A DNA stretch of 64,000 bases from Prosopocoilus inquinatus. Its lineage: Eukaryota; Arthropoda; Insecta; Coleoptera; Lucanidae. Position 1 is the stretch's first letter. The number at the start of each line of letters is the position of its first letter. Below are positions 4,266 to 57,500 of the stretch, one piece after another. The position numbers and the translations under genes were made by a program. The stretch is from assembly GCA_036172665.1 (NCBI GenBank), contig CM069880.1, forward strand, positions 7,256,501 to 7,320,500, in the 5' to 3' direction. The notes under the pieces are model-generated. The model was not told where the DNA came from, searched no databases, and saw nothing but the letters and a program-made list of their open reading frames with translations.

Positions 4266-5512
4266 TTAAGGTAAGTGAATTTTGTTGTGTAAGTGAAGCA
4301 AATAGGAGTACATGTTGCTTAAATGTTTAATGTCAGATTTCGCATTCATGGCTTTAGGTTCTTGTTGTATATAAAGCATTTCTAGCAAAATTCTATTGTT
4401 TTGATTCTGTTCATTGGTTAAGACTTTTATTTCATCATAATTAATTGTGTGCTTTTTATTAGAGGCGTGAGCAGCCAGTGCACAAGAGTTATTTTTACTT
4501 TTGATTTTGGTGTCACTTTTATGCTGAGTGATTCTTAATTTTAATTTTTGTGAAGTTTGACCAATGTACGCCTTATCACAATTGCTGCAAGGTATTTTAT
4601 AAATGACGCCACTATTGTCTAAAAGTTCTATTTTGTCTTTACATTTAGTCATAATATTATTGATACACATGGGGCTACTTGAAGCTATAGTAATATTGAT
4701 ATTGTTTGATTTGATAATTTCAGTTATTTTGTGAGTTATTTGTTGTATAAAGGGCAGGGATCTGTAAGTATTAATTTGATTTTGTTGAGTGTTATTGGCT
4801 GTTAATATAGGGGGTTGATTAGGTGTGGTGAAAATTAATTTATTTACAAGTGGTACAGGATATGCATTTTCTATCATAAGACTGCGTAAAATTTGTAGGT
4901 TTTTGTCGTGTAAGGAGGGGTGGGAAATTTTCTTTATTCTGTTCTTTAAAGCTAATACTAAATTCACTTTCATTTTCATTGGGTGGTTGAAGCCGTAGGT
5001 TTTCGGTACCAGTCTGTGATAATTTTATTATCGTTATTGGTTCTTATGACTTTGGTGTCTAAGAAGGGTACACTTTGGTCTGCTTCATTTTCTTCTTCAA
5101 TAGTGAATTTTATGTGTTGATCGTAGTTGTTAAAAATAGTTAGAATTTCTTGGGATTTCCCTGCAGGAATTGTACAAATTATGTCATCGACATATTTTTT
5201 TATGAAGGGTATGTGAAATGATAATTTGGGTATGCAGTCCTCTAATAGTAAATCCATAACTAAAAGGGCTAATATGGGGCTTAATTTTGAGCCCATGGGG
5301 CAACCTAATGTTTGTTTGTAAAACTTTGAGCTAAAACTGAAATAGCTGGATTCAAACAAAAATTGTACAATTTGTATAAAAAATTCCTTGGAGCATTTGC
5401 AATTTGGTTCAATACGTTTCCATCTTCTGTTGACAGTGACATTGCCTTTATCAGCTCTAGTAATAAACACTTGTGGGTTGGTTTTTAGAAAAAATTTTGT
5501 GTTGTAATACAT
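4266..5512 (-). pseudogene. PLE reverse transcriptase/GIY-YIG, internally deleted copy
   Basis: This is the minus-strand copy of the PLE coding region. The frame 5512-4976 holds the start of the RT domain, then jumps directly to the palm region with motif B (PMGSKLSP) and the YVDD catalytic box; motif A is missing because of the 469-bp deletion. The frame closes shortly after a WYRKPT motif. A second frame, 4979-4266, holds the C-terminal part with the GIY-YIG endonuclease (GVIYKIPCSNC...AYIGQT). The frame break after WYRKPT is also present in the right arm, so it predates the inverted duplication. Without motif A this copy cannot encode a working polymerase. Confidence 0.85.
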
Positions 5513-5594
5513 TTTTTGAAAATCATTTTTGGAAGCAGTTTATTGTGAATGCAAATAATTAGTGATGATGTTAACTATTTGGGCTCTAGTGATA

Positions 5595-5646: not shown

Positions 5647-7444
5647 TATCACTAGAGCCCAAATAGTTAACATCATCACTAATTATTTGCATTCACAACA
5701 AACTGCTTCCAAAAATGATTTTCAAAAAATGTATTACAACACAAAATTTTTTCTAAAAACCAACCCACAAGTGTTTATTACTAGAGCCGATAAAGGCAAT
5801 GTCACTGTCATTTTAAATAAACAACAATATATAGAAAAAATGGAAACCTTAGTCACTGACGACAATTCTTATACACTAGTAACTCGTGACCCAACACCAT
5901 CAGTACAAAGGAAAAATAATGAAATAGTTAGAAAAATGAAGCAAACAGAAATGATCGATGATAGTCATGTCAAAAAATTATCCACTTATAAAGCAGTGGC
6001 ACCCAAAATCTATGGGACACCTAAAATTCACAAACCCAATTGGCCCTTACGACCAATAGTATCATCTATCAATTCTCCTACTGAAAAACTATCTCAATTT
6101 ATTGCCAAAATTCTCACTGATTCCATTGCTACTGAAAATGAATATTTTGTAAAGGACTCCTTTCATTTTGCTACCTTCATTAATGACCTTAAAATACCAG
6201 CAAACTACGTCATTATAAGTTTAGACGTAGTCTCCTTGTTTAGTAACATTTCATTACCACTTGTTACTTGAAGGTATCAACAGAAGATGGGAACATATTG
6301 AACCAAATTGCAAATGCTCCAAGGAATTTTTTATACAAATTGTACAATTTTTGTTTGAATCCAGCTATTTCAGTTTTAGCTCAAAGTTTTACAAACAAAC
6401 ATTAGGTTACCCCATGGGCTCAAAATTAAGCCCCATATTAGCCCTTTTAGTTATGGATTTACTATTAGAGGACTGCATACCCAAATTATCATTTCACATA
6501 CCCTTCATAAAAAAATATGTCGATGACATAATTTGTACAATTCCTGCAGGGAAATCCCAAGAAATTCTAACTATTTTTAACAACTACGATCAACACATAA
6601 AATTCACTAGTGAAGAAGAAAATGAAGCAGACCAAAGTGTACCCTTCTTAGACACCAAAGTCATAAGAACCAATAACGATAATAAAATTATCACAGACTG
6701 GTACCGAAAACCTACGGCTTCAACCACCCAATGAAAATGAAAGTGAATTTAGTATTAGCTTTAAAGAACAGAATAAAGAAAATTTCCCACCCCTCCTTAC
6801 ACGACAAAAACCTACAAATTTTACGCAGTCTTATGATAGAAAATGCATATCCTGTACCACTTGTAAATAAATTAATTTTCACCACACCTAATCAACCCCC
6901 TATATTAACAGCCAATAACACTCAACAAAATCAAATTAATACTTACAGATCCCTGCCCTTTATACAACAAATAACTCACAAAATAACTGAAATTATCAAA
7001 TCAAACAATATCAATATTACTATAGCTTCAAGTAGCCCCATGTGTATCAATAATATTATGACTAAATGTAAAGACAAAATAGAACTTTTAGACAATAGTG
7101 GCGTCATTTATAAAATACCTTGCAGCAATTGTGATAAGGCGTACATTGGTCAAACTTCACAAAAATTAAAATTAAGAATCACTCAGCATAAAAGTGACAC
7201 CAAAATCAAAAGTAAAAATAACTCTTGTGCACTGGCTGCTCACGCCTCTAATAAAAAACACACAATTAATTATGATGAAATAAAAGTCTTAACCAATGAA
7301 CAGAATCAAAACAATAGAATTTTGCTAGAAATGCTTTATATACAACAAGAACCTAAAGCCATGAATGCGAAATCTGACATTAAACATTTAAGCAACATGT
7401 ACTCCTATTTGCTTCACTTACACAACAAAATTCACTTACCTTAA
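5595..7444 (+). pseudogene. PLE reverse transcriptase/GIY-YIG, longer but frameshifted copy
   Basis: The plus-strand copy of the PLE coding region runs in three frames. The first (open 5549-6271) has the RT fingers with KIHKPNWPLRPIVSS and motif A (ISLDVVSLFSNI). The second (6261-6734) has motif B and the YVDD catalytic box. The third (6731-7444, 237 codons) has the GIY-YIG endonuclease and its zinc-linker-like cysteines. The two breaks near 6260-6271 and 6716-6734 are single small frameshifts. The second break is shared with the left arm, the first cannot be compared because that region is deleted there. RT plus C-terminal GIY-YIG is diagnostic of endonuclease-bearing PLEs. Confidence 0.88.
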
Positions 7445-10339: not shown

Positions 10340-11075
10340 TTAACCTTAAGTCCTCGCCTTAATTCCTTTCATCCTACTAAACGCACTGATTGTAAGTAAT
10401 ACTTAATTAGTTTCAAATTCTTCTCACTAGGTTTTAATAATTTTAAAATCTTGTCTCTCTTTATTTTCGCTTTCGAAATTGTGTGTTACTCTCCCTAGTT
10501 CTTCTCATTCTACTGAGCGCATAGATTTTGAGTAATATTTACTCTTCAGTACATGATAGTTTCAACTTCTTCTCACTCGGTTTCAATAATCTTGAAACCT
10601 TGGCTCTTTTTATTTTCGCTTTCGAAATTGTTTACTATTCGCCTTAGTTCTTCTCATCCTACTGACCGTACTGATTATGAGTTATAGTTACTCTTTAGTG
10701 CATGAGGGTTTCAACTTCTTCTCACTGGGTTTCAATAATCTTGAAACCTTGGCTCTCTTTATTTTCGCTCTCGAAATTATCTGCTACTCGCCTTAGTTCT
10801 TCTCATCCTACTAAGCGTACTGATTGTGAGTAATAGTTCCTCTTTAGTACATGAGGATTTCAACTTCTTCTCAATGGGTTTAAGTAATTTTGAAACCTTG
10901 GGTTTCTTTATTTCGCTTTTGAAATTATCTGTTACTCGCTTTAGTTCTTCTTATCCTACTGAGCGCATTGATTGTGGGTAATATTTATTCTTCAGTACAT
11001 GAGAGTTTCAACTTTTTCTCATTGAGTTTCAATAATTTTAAAACCTTGGCTTTCTTTATTTTCGCTTTCCAAATA
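10340..11075. repeat. 149-bp minisatellite, about five copies
   Basis: The phrase CTTCTCATYCTACT recurs at 10501, 10650, 10799 and 10947, a period of 149, 149 and 148 bp, with a more diverged unit before it and a partial one after. Each unit also contains TATTTTCGCTTTCGAAATT. Copies are roughly 85-90% alike by eye. The 66-codon frame at 10968-11168 inside it has no support as a gene. Confidence 0.88.
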
Positions 11076-11159
11076 TCTACTTATTACTTAAATCAAGGTA
11101 ATCTCATTCCGCAATTTTTATCTCAAAGGTATTTGCAAAAAACACTAGTCATTTCGTGC

Positions 11160-36265: not shown

Positions 36266-37316
36266 GAATAAATTCAAACCCTACGGATTTCTTCTCTTTT
36301 TAATCCATCCCACATTTTGATTTAATAATTGTTCACCTCATTCCCACATTTTGATTTGGTAATTGTTCACCTCACTTACAAGTTTGTTTTTTACGGACCA
36401 CCGAAGAAAGCTCGGGACCCTTGCATAAGGAAAAAGGAATTCATTTGCAGTGTATTGGATCTTCACTTAATCCACGTGATCTACGACGTACCAAACCAAT
36501 TACCTTACAGTTGACACAATTTTTTTCAAACCCTGGGTGATTGCCCCTTTTATATAAATTCAAACGCTCCGGATTTCTTCTGTTTTTAATCTATCCCACA
36601 TTTTGATTTGGTATTGTTCACCTCACTTACACTTTTTTTTTAGCGACCACCTAAAGCTCGGGGTCCTTGAATAAGGAAAAAGGAATTTGTTTGCACTATA
36701 CTGTATCTTTAGTTAATCCGCGTAATCTACGACGTACCAAACCAATTACGTTACGTCACAGTTGATACAGTTTCTTTCAAACCCTGGGCAATTGTCCCAT
36801 TTATTTAAATTTAAACTCTCCGGATTTCTTTTCTTTTTAATCTATCCCATATGTTGATTTGGTAATTGGTCACTCAGTTACATTTTTTTTTCTTTACCGA
36901 CCACCCAAAGTTCCGGGCCCTTGCATAAGGAAAAAGGAATTTGTTTGCACTTTATTGGATCTTAAGTTAATCCACGTGATGCACGACGTACCAAACTAAT
37001 TACCTCACAGTTGATACAGAGTGTTTCAAATCCTGGGCGATTGTCCCTTTTATATAAATTTAAACCCTCCGGATTTCTTCTCTTTTTAATCTATCCCGCA
37101 TTTTGATTTAGTAGTTGGTCACCTCACAAGTTTTTTTTTACTAACCACCCAAAGCTCAGAGCCTTTGGATAAGGAAAAAGAAATTTGTTTGCACTGTATT
37201 GGATCTTCAGTTAATCCACACGATCTACGACGTACCAAACCAATCACCTGACAATGAATGCAGCTTCTTTTAAACCCTGAGCGATTGCCCCGTTTATCCA
37301 CCCCTAGAGCCCGCCA
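36266..37316. repeat. 248-bp tandem array, four units, with a hAT-like right end
   Basis: CGGATTTCTTCTSTTTTTAA recurs at about 36286, 36571, 36819 and 37067. Later spacings are 248 bp and the first is longer because of a local duplication of CACATTTTGATTTRRTAATT. Each unit also carries GACGTACCAAACCAAT. The array ends in GAGCCCGCCACTGAC, whose complement starts CAGTGGCGGGC, a hAT-type terminus, so the array may be the interior of a non-autonomous element with a lost left end. Confidence 0.85.
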
Positions 37317-45500: not shown

Positions 45501-48500
45501 AATCAAATCAAACAAAAAGGAATGGAAACAAAAGATGATAAACGGATAGTTACAAAACAAATTTGAGCAAGAAAAAAAGAAAGACCAATCAATGGATTAT
45601 ATTAAAAACTATTACATTATATTTGTTTACACAAACAAGAAACAAAAGAAACAAAAGACGATCGGGACAAAGATAAGACGAAAAAAACAAAACAAGACAA
45701 AAATTCTGTAAAACCAACTAACAATAAGTCAAATCGAATCAAGACTAGTTAAAGCTTAAACAAAAGAAAAATAAAGTCAAATCAAATCAAAAAATACGAT
45801 CGATGTATAATTAAAAATAAAATAAAATAAAACAAGGACAAATGGAATCATGTATTGTCGCAATTTAACAAAAGTGAAATTTAGTGCTATCAGTAACGGG
45901 TATGTTTTTTTAATTTGGCGTCGAAATTGCCGGCAATGTGTTTATTGTGAACGCAACACAATTTTTGAAACATCTGATATATTGTGGCGAGCCAACCTGA
46001 CTTAGCGCAAGGCGTCAAGAAGTCGGTCCGCTGTTATGTGTCATCGGCCGTCACGCGGTCGGGGCCTACATCGAACAAACTAGAATCTTCCAGCGTAGAG
46101 ACTTCCAGAGGCCAGCAAATGATATAAAATCGCCCGGAGTTGACTCACCAGGCAGTCGAATTCTAACAGCGAACGTCGAAGTTAGATTTTAGTGTGAAAA
46201 TAAATTATTACAAATTAGTTTTTAAGCTTTATTAAATTACGGTTAAGTTTTTATCGAGTGTTTTATTCGTTTAAATAAATAAACATAAACCCTAGAAACG
46301 TAACAGTGGTGTCGGTGTGCGGGTTTGTGCAAATAAATAAACAATTTAAAGTAAATTAAATTTAATCAGATTATTAAATAAGTACAGTATAGGAAAAAAA
46401 AAACAATGGCTACGAGAAAAGTGTTGTTGAAAGACTTAAAAGTGGCCGAATTAAAAACCGTATTGGAAGAACGAGAGTTAGAAACCTGTGGTTTGAAAGG
46501 CGCACTTCAACAGCGTCTCCGATCCGATTTGTTGACAGCTGGTGAAGATCCAGAGACGTTCCTTTTCGAAATTTCGTGTGGTCCCGTCGATTTTAATAAA
46601 ATCTTGAAAGATGAATTTCGAGAACAATCCAGAAATTTCAAGGACGAACTTCGAGAACAATCCAGAAATTTGGACGAGAAGCTTCTAGAACAATCTGGAA
46701 ATTTCAAGGAAGAACTTCGAGAACAATCTGGAAATTTCAAGGACGAACTTCGAGAACAATCCAGAAATTTGGACGAGAAGTTTCTAGAACAATCTGGAAA
46801 ATTCAAGGACGAACTTCGAGAACAATCCAGAAATTTGGACGAGAAGTTTCAAGAACAGTCTGGAAATTTAGAGAAGCTTCGAGAACAATCCAGAAATTTA
46901 GAGGAGAAACTTCTAGAACAATCTGGAAATTTCGACAAATTACAAAATAAATTGTTGGAACAATCTAGAGACTTAGACGAGAAATTTCTAGAGCAATCCA
47001 GAAATTTCGACGAGAAACTTCTAGAACAGTCCGGAAATTTGAAGGGTGAATTTCTAGAACAGACGAAAGGACTCGAAGATAAACTAGTGGTAAAAATATC
47101 GGAAGAAACAAGAAACCTGCAAGAAAATGTGGAAGAAATAATATTCCAGCAGGATAACAAAATCAAAAATCTGGAACAAATCATGGCGGGGTTGCGAGTG
47201 TTCGGGGATCAGCCACCAGTAGAAGTACTAGAAAATAATGAAACCCGAATTGTGGAAGGACCAGCAGAAAATTCGAAATTAAAATAAAACCACCAACGTT
47301 CGATGGAAAGTCTTCTTGGCCCAACTACTTCAAACAGTTCGAAGCAGCAGCAAAGGCGAACAGATGGACGGCCAGCGAAAAAGCCACTTCGTTAATTGTG
47401 GCCTTGAGAGGGGACGCTATCGATGTGCTACAGACGATGCCGCCAGAGGAACAAGAAGACTTCGACAAGCTGGTGAATAGGATGGAAATGCGTTACGGAC
47501 AGGCCCATCTGACCGAGGTATACCATGCGCAGTTGAGGAATCGCTGTCAGAAATCCGGAGAAACTCTTCAGGAATTCGAAGCAGACGTTGCGCGTCTGGC
47601 CCAGTTGGCATATCCCACAGCTCCTGTTGAATTCCTCAAATGTTTGACGGTGCAGACCTTCATAGATGGAATCCGTGACCCAGACAACCAGCAGGCATTG
47701 AGAATGACCCATCCGAAGACGTCCAAGAACGCATTGGCTTATGCCTTGGAATTTGAAGCGGCGAGACGAGTCTCAAGAGGGCATGTCAAGGTGCGAGCGG
47801 CTATGGACTTCCAAGAGGAAGAAGAGGAAGAATCCGCTAACGCCAAGGTGGGATCTGCTATAAAGAAGCGACCCAGGGAGTATACCACAGCCGAGGATGT
47901 TTGCCGCATTGTGGAACAGATCTTCAAGCAGAAGAAGCCGCTGGTGTGTTGGAATTGCCAGGAGGAAGGACATGTTCGCAGGCGATGTCCAAAGCCCAGA
48001 CAGGATCCAAGGAAGCCACAGTTAAACTAAGCCGGGTCGGTGCAGAGGGGCAAACGTCGACCCGTATTCAAAGGCCCCCAAAGACGAAAGCCAAACAAGT
48101 AATATCCCTACGACAGTTAACCAGCAGTGTCTTCGTGGATGTCACCATTGATGACATTCCTCACACCATGTTGTTGGATACGGGTGCGACGAAGACCATC
48201 CTAAGACCCGACGTCATTAAGTCATCTGGACGCACCGAGCCGACCAAGTGGAAACTGAAAACTGCAACTGGAACATCAGCAACTGTCCACGGTGAAGTAG
48301 AGGTTATCATCACCATTGGTTCAACTCCAATAAAACACCGTGCACTGGTGGCAGATATAGAGGACGAGGCAATTTTGGGCATGGACGTCATGTGTGCCCA
48401 CGGGTTCCAATTGGACTTAAAGCGTGGCGTGATGGCGGTCAATAATGAGGAGTTGGTTCTACATCAACGAGGGGACGTGGCCGCTCGAGTAGTCCTCGCT

Positions 48501-51500
48501 GAAGACGTTGTATTACCCAGCAGGACTGAGGTTATCGTCGACGCAAAACTGGACGGTGTTTTTCAAGATGGGCAAGTCATTATGGTTGAACCTAATACTG
48601 ATGATCAAAGGATTGGAAGAGGAGTCCTCGTTGGGAAAATGTTGTTGACGGCGAAGAAGGAAGTACCTGTCCGCCTGATGAACGTCAATTGTTTCTCTGT
48701 CAATATCAAGAAAGGAACAATCTTGGGAAGCTGCACTATGGTGTCCTCCATCTCCCGGCAACTTGAAACAAACGTGCCAGAAGCGAAAGTCCCAAAGAAA
48801 TTATGGGAAATGGTTATGTCAACAGCCCAGGAATTGACTCCAGACCAGAAGACAAAAGCAAAGAATCTGATCGGCCGCTATCAAGATGTATTTGAGGTAG
48901 AAAATGGATCCAAGGGAAGAACTGATGTCGAGAAACACAAAATAGAGACTGGAGAAGAAAGACCTATCCGTCAAGCTCCAAGGCGATTACCGTTGGCGAA
49001 GCGTGAGGAAGCGGAACGCATTATTCGCGAGATGGAAAAGGATAATGTAATAGAACCATCAAGCAGCCCGTGGGCGTCACCAGTAGTGCTTGTGAAGAAG
49101 AAGGATGGGTCCACCAGGTTCTGTGTAGACTACCGGTTACTCAATAATGTCACCAAGAAGGACAGCTATCCCTTGCCCCGGATTGATGATACCCTGGACA
49201 CCCTGGCCGGCTCAAAGATCTTCTCAACTTTGGACTTAAAGAGTGGATATTGGCAAGTGGAGCTGGCGCCCGAAGATCGAGAAAAGACGGCGTTTTCCAT
49301 TGGTATGGGTCTGTGGCAGTTCACAGTGATGCCATTCGGGTTATGTAATGCCCCAGCGACATTCGAGAGGTTAATGGAGACGGTTCTGAAAGGTCTGTCC
49401 TGGACAACGTGCATGGTGTACCTTGACGACATAATTGTCGTAGGAAAGACGTTCGACGACCACCTAAGGAACCTGGAAGGAGTGTTCCAGCGGCTTCGCG
49501 GAGCTGGACTAAAGCTTAGCCTCAAGAAGTGTCACCTGTTCCAGAAGGAAGTGAATTACCTGGGGCACATTGTTAATGGAAAAGGAATCGCCGTGGACCC
49601 TGTGAAGATTCAGGTGGTGAAAGACTGGCCAACTCCCAGAAATAAACACCAAATAAGGAGTTTCCTTGGCCTGTGCACTTACTATCTGCGCTACGTTCCT
49701 GGATTTGCAGACATTGCTAAGCCGTTGACAAAACTCACTGAAGAAGGTCGTCCATTTGAATGGGACCAACAGTGTCAAATTGGCTTTGAACAACTAAAGC
49801 AGTACTTGATTAGTGCCCCTATTCTGAGTTATCCTCTCCCGGAAGGCAAGTTCGTCGTGGACACAGATGCTAGCAACGTTGGGATTGGTGGCGTACTCTC
49901 CCAGATACAAGAGGGGCAAGAGAAGGTGATCGGCTACTTCAGTAAAGTCCTATCAAAGCCGGAACGAAACTATTGCGTCACAAGAAGGGAATTGCTAGCC
50001 GTCGTAAAAACGATAGAACACTTCTACAAGTACTTGTATGGTAGACGCTTCCTGCTGAGGACCGACCACGCCGCTCTAAAATGGCTTCTCCGTTTCAAGA
50101 ACCCAGAAGGGCAAGTTGCACGATGGATCGAACGACTTCAGGAGTACGATTTTGAAATTCAGCATCGGGCAGGAACTAGCCATCGAAATGCCGATGCTCT
50201 GTCGAGAAGACCCTGTGCCGAAGACTGTAAGCACTGTAGTCGTTTGGACGAGAAAGTAGCCACGACTGCGAGGACAGCCATTGTTGATGACAAATGCCAA
50301 GGCGAAGAACTGCGAAGAGACCAGGAGAACGACCCGGATTTGAAATTAGTGCTAGAATGGAAAAGCAGGGACGCGAGGCCTACCTGGGAAGAGGTAGCAC
50401 CATGTGCACCGTCCGTAAAATCATACTGGGCGCAGTGGGACTCCATAGTGTTGGATCGTGGTCTTCTGAGACGAAGCATAGAGAATCAGGAAGGCATGGA
50501 ACAGAAGACACAGTTACTGATCCCCAAGAATAGGGTGCCAGAATTTCTGAGGGAACTTCACGATGGAACTTCCGGAGGGCATCTGGGAGTTAAGAAGACT
50601 ATGGAAAAGGTGCGCGAAAGATTTTACTGGGTGAACTGCAAGGAAGACGTGAAGGATTGGTGCAGAAAGTGTACAGTCTGCGCAGCCAGTAACGGTCCCC
50701 ACAGGCGGGGTAAGGCTCCCATGAGACAGTACAACGTTGGAAGTCCTTTTGAGAGAGTTGCCATCGATGTAGCCGGCCCGTTTCCAGAAACGAATGGTGG
50801 AAACAAGTACATCGTCGTGGTAATGGACTACTTTAGCAAGTGGGTTGAAGCTTACGCCCTACCTAACCAAGAGGCAGTCACTATTGCGGAAGTCCTTGTC
50901 AGGGAATGGATCAGTCGGTATGGTGCACCTATGGAACTGCATTCAGACCAAGGAAGGAACTTTGAATCGGCCTTGTTCAAGAACGTGTGTACTCTGCTCG
51001 GCGTACGAAAAACTAGAACAACTGCACTCCACCCACAGTCGGACGGAATGGTGGAAAGGTTCAATAGAACCATCAACCGACATTTGTCCAAGGTCGTTTC
51101 CAATCATCAGACGGACTGGGACACGTACATCCCCCTGTTTCTAATGGCATACCGCTCATCTGTTCATGCGACAACAGGGGAGACTCCCGCGAAAGTGGTA
51201 TTCGGGCGAGAGCCGAGACTGCCCTGCGACCTGAAGTTTGGTGTGAAGCCTGGCGAAGTCTCTGCCGACGAAGATTACGTGAGCAAATTACGCAGGAAAA
51301 TGGATGATATCCACAACCAAGTGCGTCACAATATACAGACGGCCAGCGATCGGATGAAGGAGCACTATGACATCAACGGTCAACACGGGGGATACCAACC
51401 TGGAGCACTGGTCTGGCTTTATAACCCCCAAAGACGTCGAGGCCTCTCCCCAAAATTACAGACCTCTTGGGAAGGTCCTTACAAAGTGATGAAACGGATC

Positions 51501-54500
51501 AACGACGTCGTTTACCGCATCAGGAAGGTCCCCCATGGCAAACCCAAAGTAATCCACTTCAACCGGATAGCCCCTTACCATGGAGAAGCAGATGAAGGGA
51601 CAGTACAAAGGGCGCAAGTTTCCGAAGTGAACTTCGAAACCTTCATGTCTCATCACGCCGAAGGAAGCAAGGCACGGTTTGGAGTGACCACGGAGAAGCA
51701 ACAAGATCTCTTTAAAGTGCCACTGGAGTACAGTCTGGCCCACTGCGTAGCAGAAGACCTGAAAATGTCCAAAGGAATCGCTCAGGTGTTTAGGAAGAAA
51801 TTTGGCCAAATCGAGGAGCTACGAAGACAGCATCCCGTGGTAGGCAAGAGCTTGCAGATCATTGATTCGACGGCAGATCGGAGGCGCCACGTGCATTATT
51901 TAGTCACTAAGAAGACATCAAGCGGTAAACCTGACTATGTGACTATGTGGAGAGCCCTATATAGCCTGAGGAGACAGCTAATAGAGAACCATCAGATGAA
52001 GTTAGCCATCCCCAAATTGGGCTGCGGATTGGACGGACTAGACTGGAGAGTAATTCGAAGCATGCTGGAAGTCATCTTCCACAGAACGGGAATTGAAGTC
52101 CTAGTCTGCAGCCACCACCCACAGGCAACAGTCAGCAACAGCAAAACCGTAGACTGTTACTTCTTCCAGGCGGGAAGTTGCAAGAATGGGCCAGCATGTA
52201 GATTCCGACACCCTCCTTCAAGACTATCACCAGGAACATTTCGAGACGAAACGTTTCTAAGGAGGGGGCAGTGTGGCGAGCCAACCTGACTTAGCGCAAG
52301 GCGTCAAGAAGTCGGTCCGCTGTTATGTGTCATCGGCCGTCACGCGGTCGGGGCCTACATCGAACAAACTAGAATCTTCCAGCGTAGAGACTTCCAGACG
52401 CCAGCAAATGATATAAAATCGCCCGGAGTTGACTCACCAGGCAGTCGAATTCTAACAGCGAACGTCGAAGTTAGATTTTAGTGTGAAAATAAATTATTAC
52501 AAATAAATTAGTTTTTAAGCTTTATTAAATTACGGTTAAGTTTTTATCGAGTGTTTTATTCGTTTAAATAAATAAACATAAACCCTAGAAACGTAACAAT
52601 ATGTACGTCATTTGCTGTGAGTTTTGAAACAAAAATTGGTTTTTTTTTCAATAAAATAGAACTTAGATAGCGGAGTTTTTTGAAGAATTCTGCCAGTAAT
52701 TTCCTGAACGTCGAACGCAAAAACAAGGTTAGGTATGCCGTAGTGGTAAGTTTAAACGTCAGATGTCAAATTGATAACTGTCATTTTGGTGGTGGTTCAC
52801 AATTAAACTTTCATTGCCAACTTCGAGGCCAAATTAAAAAAAAATCTTTATATCTAAATACACATTTGATGGAGATGGGGGTCGATAGAAATTTTTAATT
52901 TCTTGTAACGTATCGATGATTCAAAAATCTGGGAATCCCTGTATTATATAAACAAAGATTTTCCGTAATATTTTTAGTTAGGCCAGCATCACGCTGTAAA
53001 AAATCCTCGGAAAAAATATTTTATAAAGGAAAAATGTGTCGGTGGAATAGACCATCCGTCATAAAAAGTTTCAACAGGTCTTTTTATATATAAAAAAAGA
53101 GTTGACACTCTAAAATAATAACAAATAAAACTTAGAAAAAAAATGTTGAAGCAATTAACACAAGTATCAGGGGTTGCCCAAATTTTTAAGTATCTTCAAC
53201 CATTCTCTAATAGTTTTTGTAACTTCTGCTATCGCCACAGAAACTTTTGATGGATTCCCCTAATATCCACCACGCCTTTATCCTTACCCAAAGGTGTCAT
53301 GTTTTTTTTTCTTCTTCTAACAAAACAAATTCCAATATCTTCTGTAATCAAAAAATCAAGAAATTTTATAAATAAAAGTTTTAAAATAAAATAAGTGATG
53401 CAATTTATTAAATAATTATTTAAAAATGCGTACAGGTCTGGGGTTGATTATTAAATAAACAAATTAGGGATCCGCTGACAGATATAATTTGGCACATGAT
53501 TTGAAAACGCTCTTTTGCATTAGAACTACAGAATGCAGGAACCTTTCCTGAATAATTACAACACGAACTTAGTTTATCACATGCGAATTTACAATTCGGG
53601 CGATTTATAACATATGACAACTTGATAATTAACGAAGCTAACTTTAAAGCGTTTGTAAAAGCGTTTGAAGTAGTGCAAAACTATGGTCCAGACAATGAAG
53701 GCCGACACTGCATTGGACATCAGTGTGAAGATGATTTCGATCACACACTCCTTCATAAAGTTTGACAGGGCCATCACCGGTCGCAGATGTTCGTCGAAGT
53801 TTACTCGGACTGGAGTCTTCAGATACGAAAGGGTTTCGAATGATTGCAACAAGAAATTCATGCTTAGGACTGCGGCTAAAAATAATTTCGATAAACCAAA
53901 TTTAAAAAAAAAGATAAATAAATACCTGCAATCATAAATGACAATCTTATGGTTATTATTAAATAAGCAATGAACTTTCTTGAAACCATTGTAATTGCGA
54001 CTGCAAATTTATTGGTAAAGTGTGTATGAATAATTTTGATGTGATATGGAGGTATTAAATAGCGTATTTTTCTTCGCCATTACGAAACTGACGAGCAGCT
54101 CGACATTCGAGTAATTCCTAAATACCTAAAAACGAAAGCTCGCAGTTCAAACAGTGCAGATTGATTAATAAATCGTTTTGTTTTCGTTGGTTTTTCTCTG
54201 AATGAAAATTAATTTTAATTGGCACATCTAAGTTTCCTTATATGCGTTTAATTTTAAACAAATAAGGAAGGCTAATTGAATGTATAAACAAACCCGATGC
54301 AAGAAGTCGTGATTTATAATTTGAAGTCGTCGAGTCGCGTTTCCATTTACAGATATTAATCACGGATAATATCTTGGATGTAATGGGGAAACTATCAATT
54401 ATCTGCTAATATTAATATATTGTCCATCTACCGTCGATGAGACAGTTATTTATATCACTAAAGCTAATGCACCGGTACTCAATTCATTCAGAGATTATTG

Positions 54501-57500
54501 CACTTGACTTTGTTGCTGGTGTTATTAGAAAACCTGAACTTAGGTGTGCCACTTAAAATGATAAAAGCCTATGAAAAACTGGTACGGAAATGCTTAATAA
54601 CACATAACTTGCCATGAGAAGTTGTTTGTAACTCGCATCAAGCAAGTATGTGATTAAATTAATTTCCTTGTTGTTTTATTCTAGCTGAGCTTGGAGATTA
54701 TGATCCTCGACGACATAGTCCCGGATATGTTTCCGAATTTCGATTTTTATCAAACCAAACCTTAGAATTAGAAACACGCATTGCCGAACTTCATAAAACA
54801 CTCGTGTAAGTATTTCAGCAAAACCCATGCAATTTTCCTTCCTTCTGCAAACCGCATGACGCCTCAGGAGATCAACAGGAAATTCACAGTTACATTGTCG
54901 AGCCATGTACACACGTAATTTTATTCAAACGCGATGCATAAATAAACCCAAAAGAATTTATAACATGCACAACAATTTCCTTCTTCCCATAATCGCGTTC
55001 AACTTAAAAAAAAAAAATTAAAATTGACTCGGCGAGATATTACATCACACCGTATATTTAGATACCTAGTATAATTTGCAGGATTAATTAATATCGCCGG
55101 TCATAATTAACACATTGCCATTTTAGTACTTACTATATTTATCGCAACCATCGGACAAATGTCAATGACTGTCATCTTAAAACTGATTTGATCCATGTAC
55201 CTAGTTTTAATTTATTAAATTTCCCATTAATTTCACTTATTCATATTATTATCCATAAATGTTATTATTAAATTCGAAACGATTTCATTTTTTAGCGGGC
55301 AATTACCTTCTGTGGCGGAATTAAATTATTTAGACAAAGTAAAATGGTTGGAAATGTACGGAGTCGACCTTCACCCTGTTTTGGTAAAGCAAAATTGGCA
55401 AGTAAACCAAAGAATATTAAAAAAAAATCGCATTCTAGGGAGAAGACAACGTCGAATACTTCTTGGGGTTAACCCCCAGCGGTATAATAGTCCTGAGGAA
55501 TAAGAACACCGTAGGCAATTACTACTGGCCTAGAATTTCCAAAATTTATTTCAAAGGACGCTATTTCATGCTGAGGATCACAGATAAAAACGTATGCCAA
55601 AATTATTTATATCTTCCCATCTTTCTATTTATAAATTTATTAACCAAGAATCACTATTGGTACAGTAATTTTCAAGGATATTAACTGGTAGATAAATTTC
55701 TAGGAAGGTGGAATGTTCGGGTCTCTTTAGCCCTTTTCCACAACAAAGCTACTTTTCCTGCTCGGAAAATGGGGTATTTGGGGATTGCTGCTTGTTTTTC
55801 ACTGATTACGTGGTAACCAATAATTTTCGTCAAGTGAACGACGAAAGCCAATGACAACAATCCCCAAATACCCAACTCTCCAAATCTCCAAAGCAAGCAA
55901 AATAGCTTTACGAATTAAAATGGGTGCGCCGCCATGTTCCTCTTCCAAAATTTTCATACAATCTTTACTTCTTTCCTCGTCTACGTAAATCCTTCAATCT
56001 TTTAATACGTCCCAAACATATCATCATCTTCTGTTACTACTTTTTCACTCACTTTTATCGCCGAATCGAATCCGAAATTGATTTTTCTTAAACGTCTCCT
56101 CATCTTCATCACCTCAGTCTTTCTTTTTCTGATTTTTCCACTACCATCCATTATCCTATTAAAAAATTTATTCCCACCTCACCTTTCTTTCTTTTCTAAA
56201 GCTACTTCCCCCGCTTGGAAGATTGGGTATTTGGGAATTGCTGTTTAATTTTCATAGATCACGTGGTCAATGATAACCAGTAAATTCCGCCAAGCAAACG
56301 ACCAAAACCAATGACAGCAATCCCCAAATACCCAACTCTACATATCTCCAAAGCAGGAAAAGCAGCTTTACGAATTGAAATGGGTGCGCCGCCATGTTCC
56401 TCTTCCAAAATCTTCATACAATCTTTACTTACTTCTTTCCTCGTCTACGTAAATTCATCAATCTTTTAATTCATCCCACTTACTTCATCATCTTCTGTTA
56501 CTACCTTTTCAATTATTTTATCACCGTATCGAATCCGAAATTGGCTTTTCTTAAACTTTCTTTTTTTGACTTTTCTAAGTTCTATGAAAGAAATGTATTC
56601 TCACCTCATTTTTTTTTTTTGATTTTTTTCTCCTCTACTTTTTTGGCGTTAAATAATATTCTTGCTTTGCAGAACGATGAAAGCACGTATGGATTCGAAA
56701 CCCCATCTAAAGCTGCTTGTAAACACCTATGGAAGTGTTGCGTGGAACACCATGCGTTTTTTAGACTGGTCCAGGTCTCTCCGACGACCCCCGATATTTT
56801 TGCTCTTGGTTCGAGGTTTAGATACAGGTAATTTTCGCGTGTTATTTTTTGCCGTTTTTTTATCGGACATTGTGTTAGCGGCAGAACGGAAAAGCAAGCG
56901 GTCAGGGATGCCCAAATGAAAGTCAGGACTCCTCCTTCCTTTTCCAGGACCCCCTCAAGGCGTTACCAGCGGAGAGTCGTTGAAGGTTCTAACGATGGTG
57001 AGCACGCAATAATTAATTCAGAAAGTGGTTGTTAGTAAAAGCTATTTTTTTGTTTTTTGATTACAGCAACACCTGCGGATGACCCAGTTAAAATCGACCA
57101 TTATCAACCATCGGAAACTAAACATATTTCGGTACCTCAGCCTGCTCAATCGTAAGACTCTAGGGGCATTTGTTGTTTAATTTGGTTAATTTGTGCGGTT
57201 TTAATAGTTTTGAAAGTCCTTATCGTTCTACTTGTAACACGTCGACGATAGATGTTAGACAGAGGTCGGATTCTCCCCGTAGTACAAGAAGCGCCCCTTG
57301 GTCTCAACCTCACTCCCGAGGATTATATAATAGCTCAGTTCCTCCTAGTCCACGCTCCGTGCGTTCCGCAGGGCCACGTTATAGGTCCTCATCTGTTGAT
57401 AGCCAAAGTTCTAACGACTCGCGATCTTGCAAAAGGTAATTATTATTATTACCAATGGTGCCAAAAAGAAATTGAGAAAAAAACATCGCTTTTTCTTTAA

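Follow-up and report, generated by a model that had tools for sequence, protein, structure and literature searches.

A Ty3/Gypsy retrotransposon of the beetle Prosopocoilus inquinatus carries, at the C-terminal end of its Pol polyprotein, a macro domain of the TARG1 class followed by a CCCH zinc finger. The element lies in a stretch of 64,000 nucleotides of contig CM069880.1, called the window here; all coordinates are positions in it. The macro domain recurs in related Pols, and that it belongs to a real lineage is, in our judgment, close to certain. The best explanation of the data as a whole (probability of about 0.6) is that this recently inserted element belongs to a macro-bearing lineage in which the module would act as an integrase-linked eraser of ADP-ribose, protecting nucleic acids or integration proteins of the element itself. 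Papers given by PMC number are cited for individual passages.

A macro domain and a zinc finger at the end of Pol

The Pol frame stays open from the GPY module of the integrase to a stop codon inside the 3′ long terminal repeat (LTR; Table 1). By both sequence and predicted fold, the domain behind the integrase belongs to the TARG1 (ALC1-like) class. Alignment to TARG1 placed both residues of the catalytic dyad in the window copy: a Lys at the position of Lys84, whose role is described in PMC8501950, and an Asp at the position of residue 125 (written Glu125 in the review PMC7050489; the aligned TARG1 sequence shows D). The finger that follows fits the pattern C-x7/8-C-x5-C-x3-H and matches the Pfam profile. 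The original prediction, that a Gypsy Pol tail holds a TARG1-like domain with catalytic Lys and Asp and then a C-x7-C-x5-C-x3-H finger, was thus borne out. Around the helix predicted ahead of the macro domain, the motif [FYI]-x2-FM occurs in 14 of 18 full-length Pols, versus none of five OARD1-like comparison rows. The best solved relative of the finger is CPSF30/CPSF4, at finger 4 of five (E 0.0015 for the stretch); the E value for the whole chain is far lower (4.4e-15) because five fingers add up. The conserved RRGQC motif at the very end of Pol was considered as a peptide signal and rejected, being the polypurine tract and the first LTR bases read as protein. A Pfam scan of the Pol tail at E 0.1 found no chromodomain, and the element does not class as a chromovirus.

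The element around this tail has the Ty3/Gypsy order of Pol domains (protease, reverse transcriptase [RT], RNase H, integrase), LTRs that start with TG and end with CA, a short target duplication, and a polypurine tract before the 3′ LTR. The two LTRs are identical in 322 of 327 aligned columns, differing by one substitution and one 4-base gap, and copies of ATAT abut both ends of the element (45979-45982 and 52599-52602). Near-identical LTRs together with the flanking ATAT indicate a young insertion. Within the window, the Pol tail and the RT each occur once, and the LTRs are just these two; nor did we find in it a tRNA or an Rfam match at gathering scores. The sequence behind the 5′ LTR was read for a tRNA primer binding site, and no tRNA was assigned to it.

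In this copy, the two upstream open reading frames (ORFs), one with the SAP domain and one capsid-like, occupy different frames and overlap at 47242-47287. In 79 listed relatives, a single predicted protein matches both parts, and 35 match the capsid-like part only. Candidates for the offset are a programmed frameshift, a broken copy, and splicing in the gene models.

Table 1. Features of the element, in window positions
Feature	Position	Strand	Basis
Whole Ty3/Gypsy element	45983..52598	+	two LTRs, flanking ATAT, gag-pol order
5′ LTR, 323 bp	45983..46305	+	alignment to 3′ LTR
ORF1: SAP domain and coiled repeats of 33-bp period	46382..47287	+	Pfam SAP E 4.8e-6
ORF2: capsid-like Gag part with CCHC knuckle	47242..48030	+	Pfam zf-CCHC E 1.1e-5
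Pol frame, stop to stop, stop codon included	47841..52289	+	
Aspartic protease	48135..48389	+	Pfam PF13650 E 3.2e-10
Reverse transcriptase and RNase H	49092..50147	+	Pfam RVT_1 E 1.7e-20 and 1.2e-11 (two pieces), RT_RNaseH E 3.5e-34
Integrase: zinc domain, core, C-terminal GPY module	50520..51575	+	Pfam H2C2 E 2.6e-20, rve E 5.9e-13, p58_C E 4.9e-12
Predicted helix preceding macro domain	51633..51659	+	structure model residues 13-21
TARG1-class macro domain	51681..52115	+	
Dyad Lys (TARG1 Lys84 position)	51909..51911	+	alignment to TARG1
Dyad Asp (TARG1 residue 125 position)	52032..52034	+	alignment to TARG1
CCCH zinc finger, C-x7-C-x5-C-x3-H	52155..52211	+	Pfam PF00642 E 3.5e-6, 27.2 bits vs 20.5
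Polypurine tract	52260..52271	+	directly 5′ of 3′ LTR; in-frame reading is part of the LRRGQ motif
3′ LTR, 327 bp	52272..52598	+	contains Pol stop

A macro-bearing lineage and its losses

We searched for relatives both with the RT (7969 relatives, of which 120 were listed and examined, with macro presence checked by profile) and with the tail in its Pol context (169 proteins, of which 120 were listed and examined). For the RT tree, the pool was 93 Pols of at least 1000 residues with RT coverage, P0216 having been dropped by hand beforehand; from it, we omitted 10 Pols whose ends were unclear and 24 module-less Pols beyond P0290. In the resulting tree of RT and RNase H (60 rows), one clade of 22 (support 98/98) contains all macro-bearing Pols, which number 19 of 22 inside the clade and 0 of 38 outside it. 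Among these 19, the finger was recognized by pattern in 11 and not in 7; the remaining one, P0215, ends inside the macro domain and was counted as macro-bearing, its finger region cut short. The original prediction asked whether the order RT, integrase, macro domain, CCCH finger marks a lineage, and it does. The finger is not essential to this arrangement, as the seven Pols without it by pattern show.

Macro domain and finger are most simply read as ancestral, since the pair P0227/P0232, at the first split of the clade, has both. A single gain of the module followed by later losses fits best, by parsimony judged by eye. The three members that lack the macro domain end differently: P0224 like the Pols outside the clade (RDEQN), P0220 with an apparent finger remnant ahead of RDE and RRGQC, and P0235 shortly after the integrase. 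P0224 could be a member that never had the module; support for its sister position is weak (93/47). The end is readable in 66 module-less Pols (3 of them within the clade); it lies a median of 46.5 residues from GPY, and RD[EDAG] occurs there in 42. Macro-bearing elements have a similar RDE beyond the finger, so the module seems to have been inserted between GPY and the old end motif. At the level of sequence and tree, we consider the macro lineage and the place of insertion established. Distances among 18 Pols behave as expected under co-inheritance (macro versus RT, Mantel r of 0.55 and P of 0.0001; macro versus integrase, r of 0.65; RT versus integrase, 0.74).

The tail search returned, among the 120 examined, 100 proteins of Aromia moschata, 16 of Molorchus minor, and 4 others. 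The dyad Lys was present in 120, the Asp in 119, and the finger in 117; since the Aromia and Molorchus rows are mostly copies within two genomes, these are not independent. The named hosts of the module span several beetle families and a leafhopper. Shorter models of this tail came from the beetles Brassicogethes (first Cys of the finger lost), Pyrocoelia and Gonioctena (no finger seen), and Diabrotica (neither dyad residue, no finger), and from the leafhopper Macrosteles (no finger seen). A further search that admitted short proteins only gave no finger in 83 proteins (P0132-P0214). The Callosobruchus Pol P0229 has both macro domain and finger. Another Pol, P0243, is filed under the fungus Erysiphe pulchra; our guess is insect contamination.

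Across the 11 finger-bearing Pols, mean pairwise identity was 79% for RT-RNase H, 75% for the zinc and core domains of the integrase, 67% for its C-terminal part, 51% for the macro domain, 48% for the finger, and 35% for the linker. The seven fingerless Pols gave 83% for RT-RNase H, 55% for the macro domain, and 17% for the linker. This ranking indicates that the macro domain is constrained but fast evolving.

Possible functions of the module

In the eraser reading, the common ancestor of an insect Ty3/Gypsy lineage would have acquired a TARG1-class macro domain and a CCCH finger between the integrase C terminus and the Pol end motif. As the C-terminal end of Pol, the module should be made together with the integrase and packaged in the particle. 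Given its predicted TARG1-like fold and its dyad, the domain is probably an active ADP-ribosyl hydrolase. Host transferases may attach ADP-ribose to the ends of element RNA or cDNA, to integrase or Gag, or to chromatin proteins at the integration site, and the macro domain would strip it, which would keep reverse transcription or integration from being blocked; we give this action on the element's own parts an even chance. For the finger, a contact with RNA or protein is the probable contribution; some relatives do without it. Known substrates of human TARG1 include thymidine adducts on DNA (PMC8501950), RNA ends (PMC6582358), and protein esters (PMC7050489). ADP-ribosylation bears on retroelements in other settings: in mammals, SIRT6 modifies KAP1 at L1 (PMC4695847). 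More tentatively, insects might restrict retrotransposons through ADP-ribosylation of their RNA, cDNA, or integration proteins; the answer of one Ty3/Gypsy lineage might have been an integrase-fused TARG1-type eraser, an antidote in every particle.

Several observations weigh against an eraser. The macro domain evolves much faster than RT, three of the 22 clade members are without it, and seven relatives that have it show no finger by pattern. The 18 full-length Pols retain the Lys in 17 and the Asp in 16; the losses fall in the sister lineages P0225 (both residues) and P0231 (Asp only). Aromia copies have ASGLD in place of the GCGLD of TARG1. A Diabrotica undecimpunctata protein of 152 residues, P0130, is named OARD1-like but is similar to the retroelement tail, and neither dyad residue is left in it; a relic and a domesticated copy are candidates for what it is. 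ADP-ribosylation of retroelement parts in insects is not established. Most affected mobile elements rise in Drosophila parp-1 mutants, including those of the Gypsy superfamily, although the authors allow an indirect effect (PMC7712786).

Chromodomains behind the integrase direct chromoviruses to heterochromatin. By analogy, the macro domain might be a reader, binding ADP-ribose or its polymers and steering the integration complex to PARylated breaks or chromatin, which we consider unlikely. Its location is that of the chromovirus chromodomain (PMC3605345), the ALC1-like class includes readers as well as erasers (PMC7050489), and P0225 and P0231 retain the fold region without the full dyad. However, a pure reader would not need the dyad that nearly all full-length Pols keep. 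The exceptions may themselves be enzymes: DarG, a bacterial antitoxin, has a macrodomain in which the Lys alone remains of the dyad, and SCO6735 has neither residue (PMC7050489), so P0225 and P0231 need not be inactive.

Less probable still is that the domain is a passenger, captured but of no use to the element and tolerated because of its place between integrase and polypurine tract. Fast evolution, the clade members without the domain, and the few dyad losses would all suit it. Against it, the open frame and the dyad are retained in Pols whose RT differs at up to about a quarter of residues, and the macro domain is more conserved than the adjoining linker; retention of the frame is not decisive, because protein predictions favor open frames. 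The original prediction had named two refuting outcomes, the absence of a macro match and a lone read-through into a host exon; neither occurred. We reject chance read-through or an assembly chimera, for which nothing was found in favor: the tail is followed by the polypurine tract and preceded by the integrase, all enclosed by the near-identical LTRs and the target duplication, and proteins of several beetle genomes have the same domain order.

By removing ADP-ribose, the macro domains of several RNA viruses counter host PARPs, and to our knowledge, ADP-ribosylation of insect retroelements has been little studied. Reversal of ADP-ribosylation is described for these viral domains (PMC7050489). 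That a retrotransposon lineage has kept a TARG1-type domain in divergent elements would indirectly indicate that ADP-ribosylation acts on insect retroelements as well, and retention of the module by a whole element family hints that insects and their mobile DNA are in conflict over ADP-ribose. The question can be tested: the domain is isolable and its active site is predicted, the dyad is altered in some natural relatives, and others have lost the finger or the module.

Origin, surroundings, and known systems

The macro tree comprised 37 rows (36 proteins hand-picked from 214, plus the window), with a midpoint root used for drawing only. The Pol-linked macro domains and fragments form one group of 21 (85/89), which adjoins an OARD1-like protein of the beetle Rhamnusium bicolor, its nearest stand-alone protein (90/91, branch 1.33), and stands apart from flea, fly, mosquito, sponge, and rotifer proteins. 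The proposed derivation from a host OARD1 thus found a neighbor in the tree; capture from an insect gene fits but is not proven, and the long Rhamnusium branch is too weak to name the donor. The domain might also have come from, or by way of, insect viruses, because TARG1-like predicted folds occur in VP8 of Kadipiro virus (38% identity) and in a pair of iridescent viruses (34% and 30%). A pattern scan of IMG/VR gave 35 loci (L001-L035) with stand-alone TARG1-like domains at 29-39% identity to the tail, all in open frames of 140-185 residues and none in a Pol.

Elsewhere in the window, an exon for a FERM C-terminal domain (56379-56828; Pfam E 7.9e-11) lies about 3.8 kb downstream of the element, which may be within or near that host gene. 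Frames for RT and GIY-YIG at 4269-5539 (−) and again at 6231-7441 (+) are arranged head to head (GIY-YIG E 9.6e-6 each), presumably an inverted pair of a Penelope-like element. Tandem arrays occupy 36342-37297 (244-bp unit, 3.8 copies) and 10409-11078 (149-bp unit, 4.5 copies).

Among the matches listed from open-licence PMC papers (subscription journals lay outside the search), judged by titles and the starts of abstracts, we found no description of a macro domain in a Ty3/Gypsy Pol, nor of a TARG1-class domain and CCCH finger ending one, and the passages on accessory domains and gene capture in PMC6338049 and PMC4299795 contain no macro domain; a further match, PMC7217437, was unrelated. The original view that the module is undescribed stands, among these papers, for Ty3/Gypsy Pol and is qualified by fish endogenous retroviruses (Basta et al. 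2009), which likewise join a retroelement and a macro domain; by the description in the review PMC4977317, through which we compare them, the fish domains are additional ORFs in Epsilon-like sequences. An accessory domain behind the integrase of a Ty3/Gypsy Pol is also known, in the chromodomain of chromoviruses (PMC3605345), which has another fold. Kadipiro virus and the invertebrate iridescent viruses are not retroelements and carry their TARG1-like folds in other proteins and genome types. CPSF30/CPSF4 has five fingers, whereas a single one is found here, in a Pol. TARG1 itself (OARD1, C6orf130) is a minimal ALC1-like hydrolase without N- or C-terminal extensions (PMC7050489); here, the domain belongs to the end of a Pol, where a helix precedes it and a finger follows.
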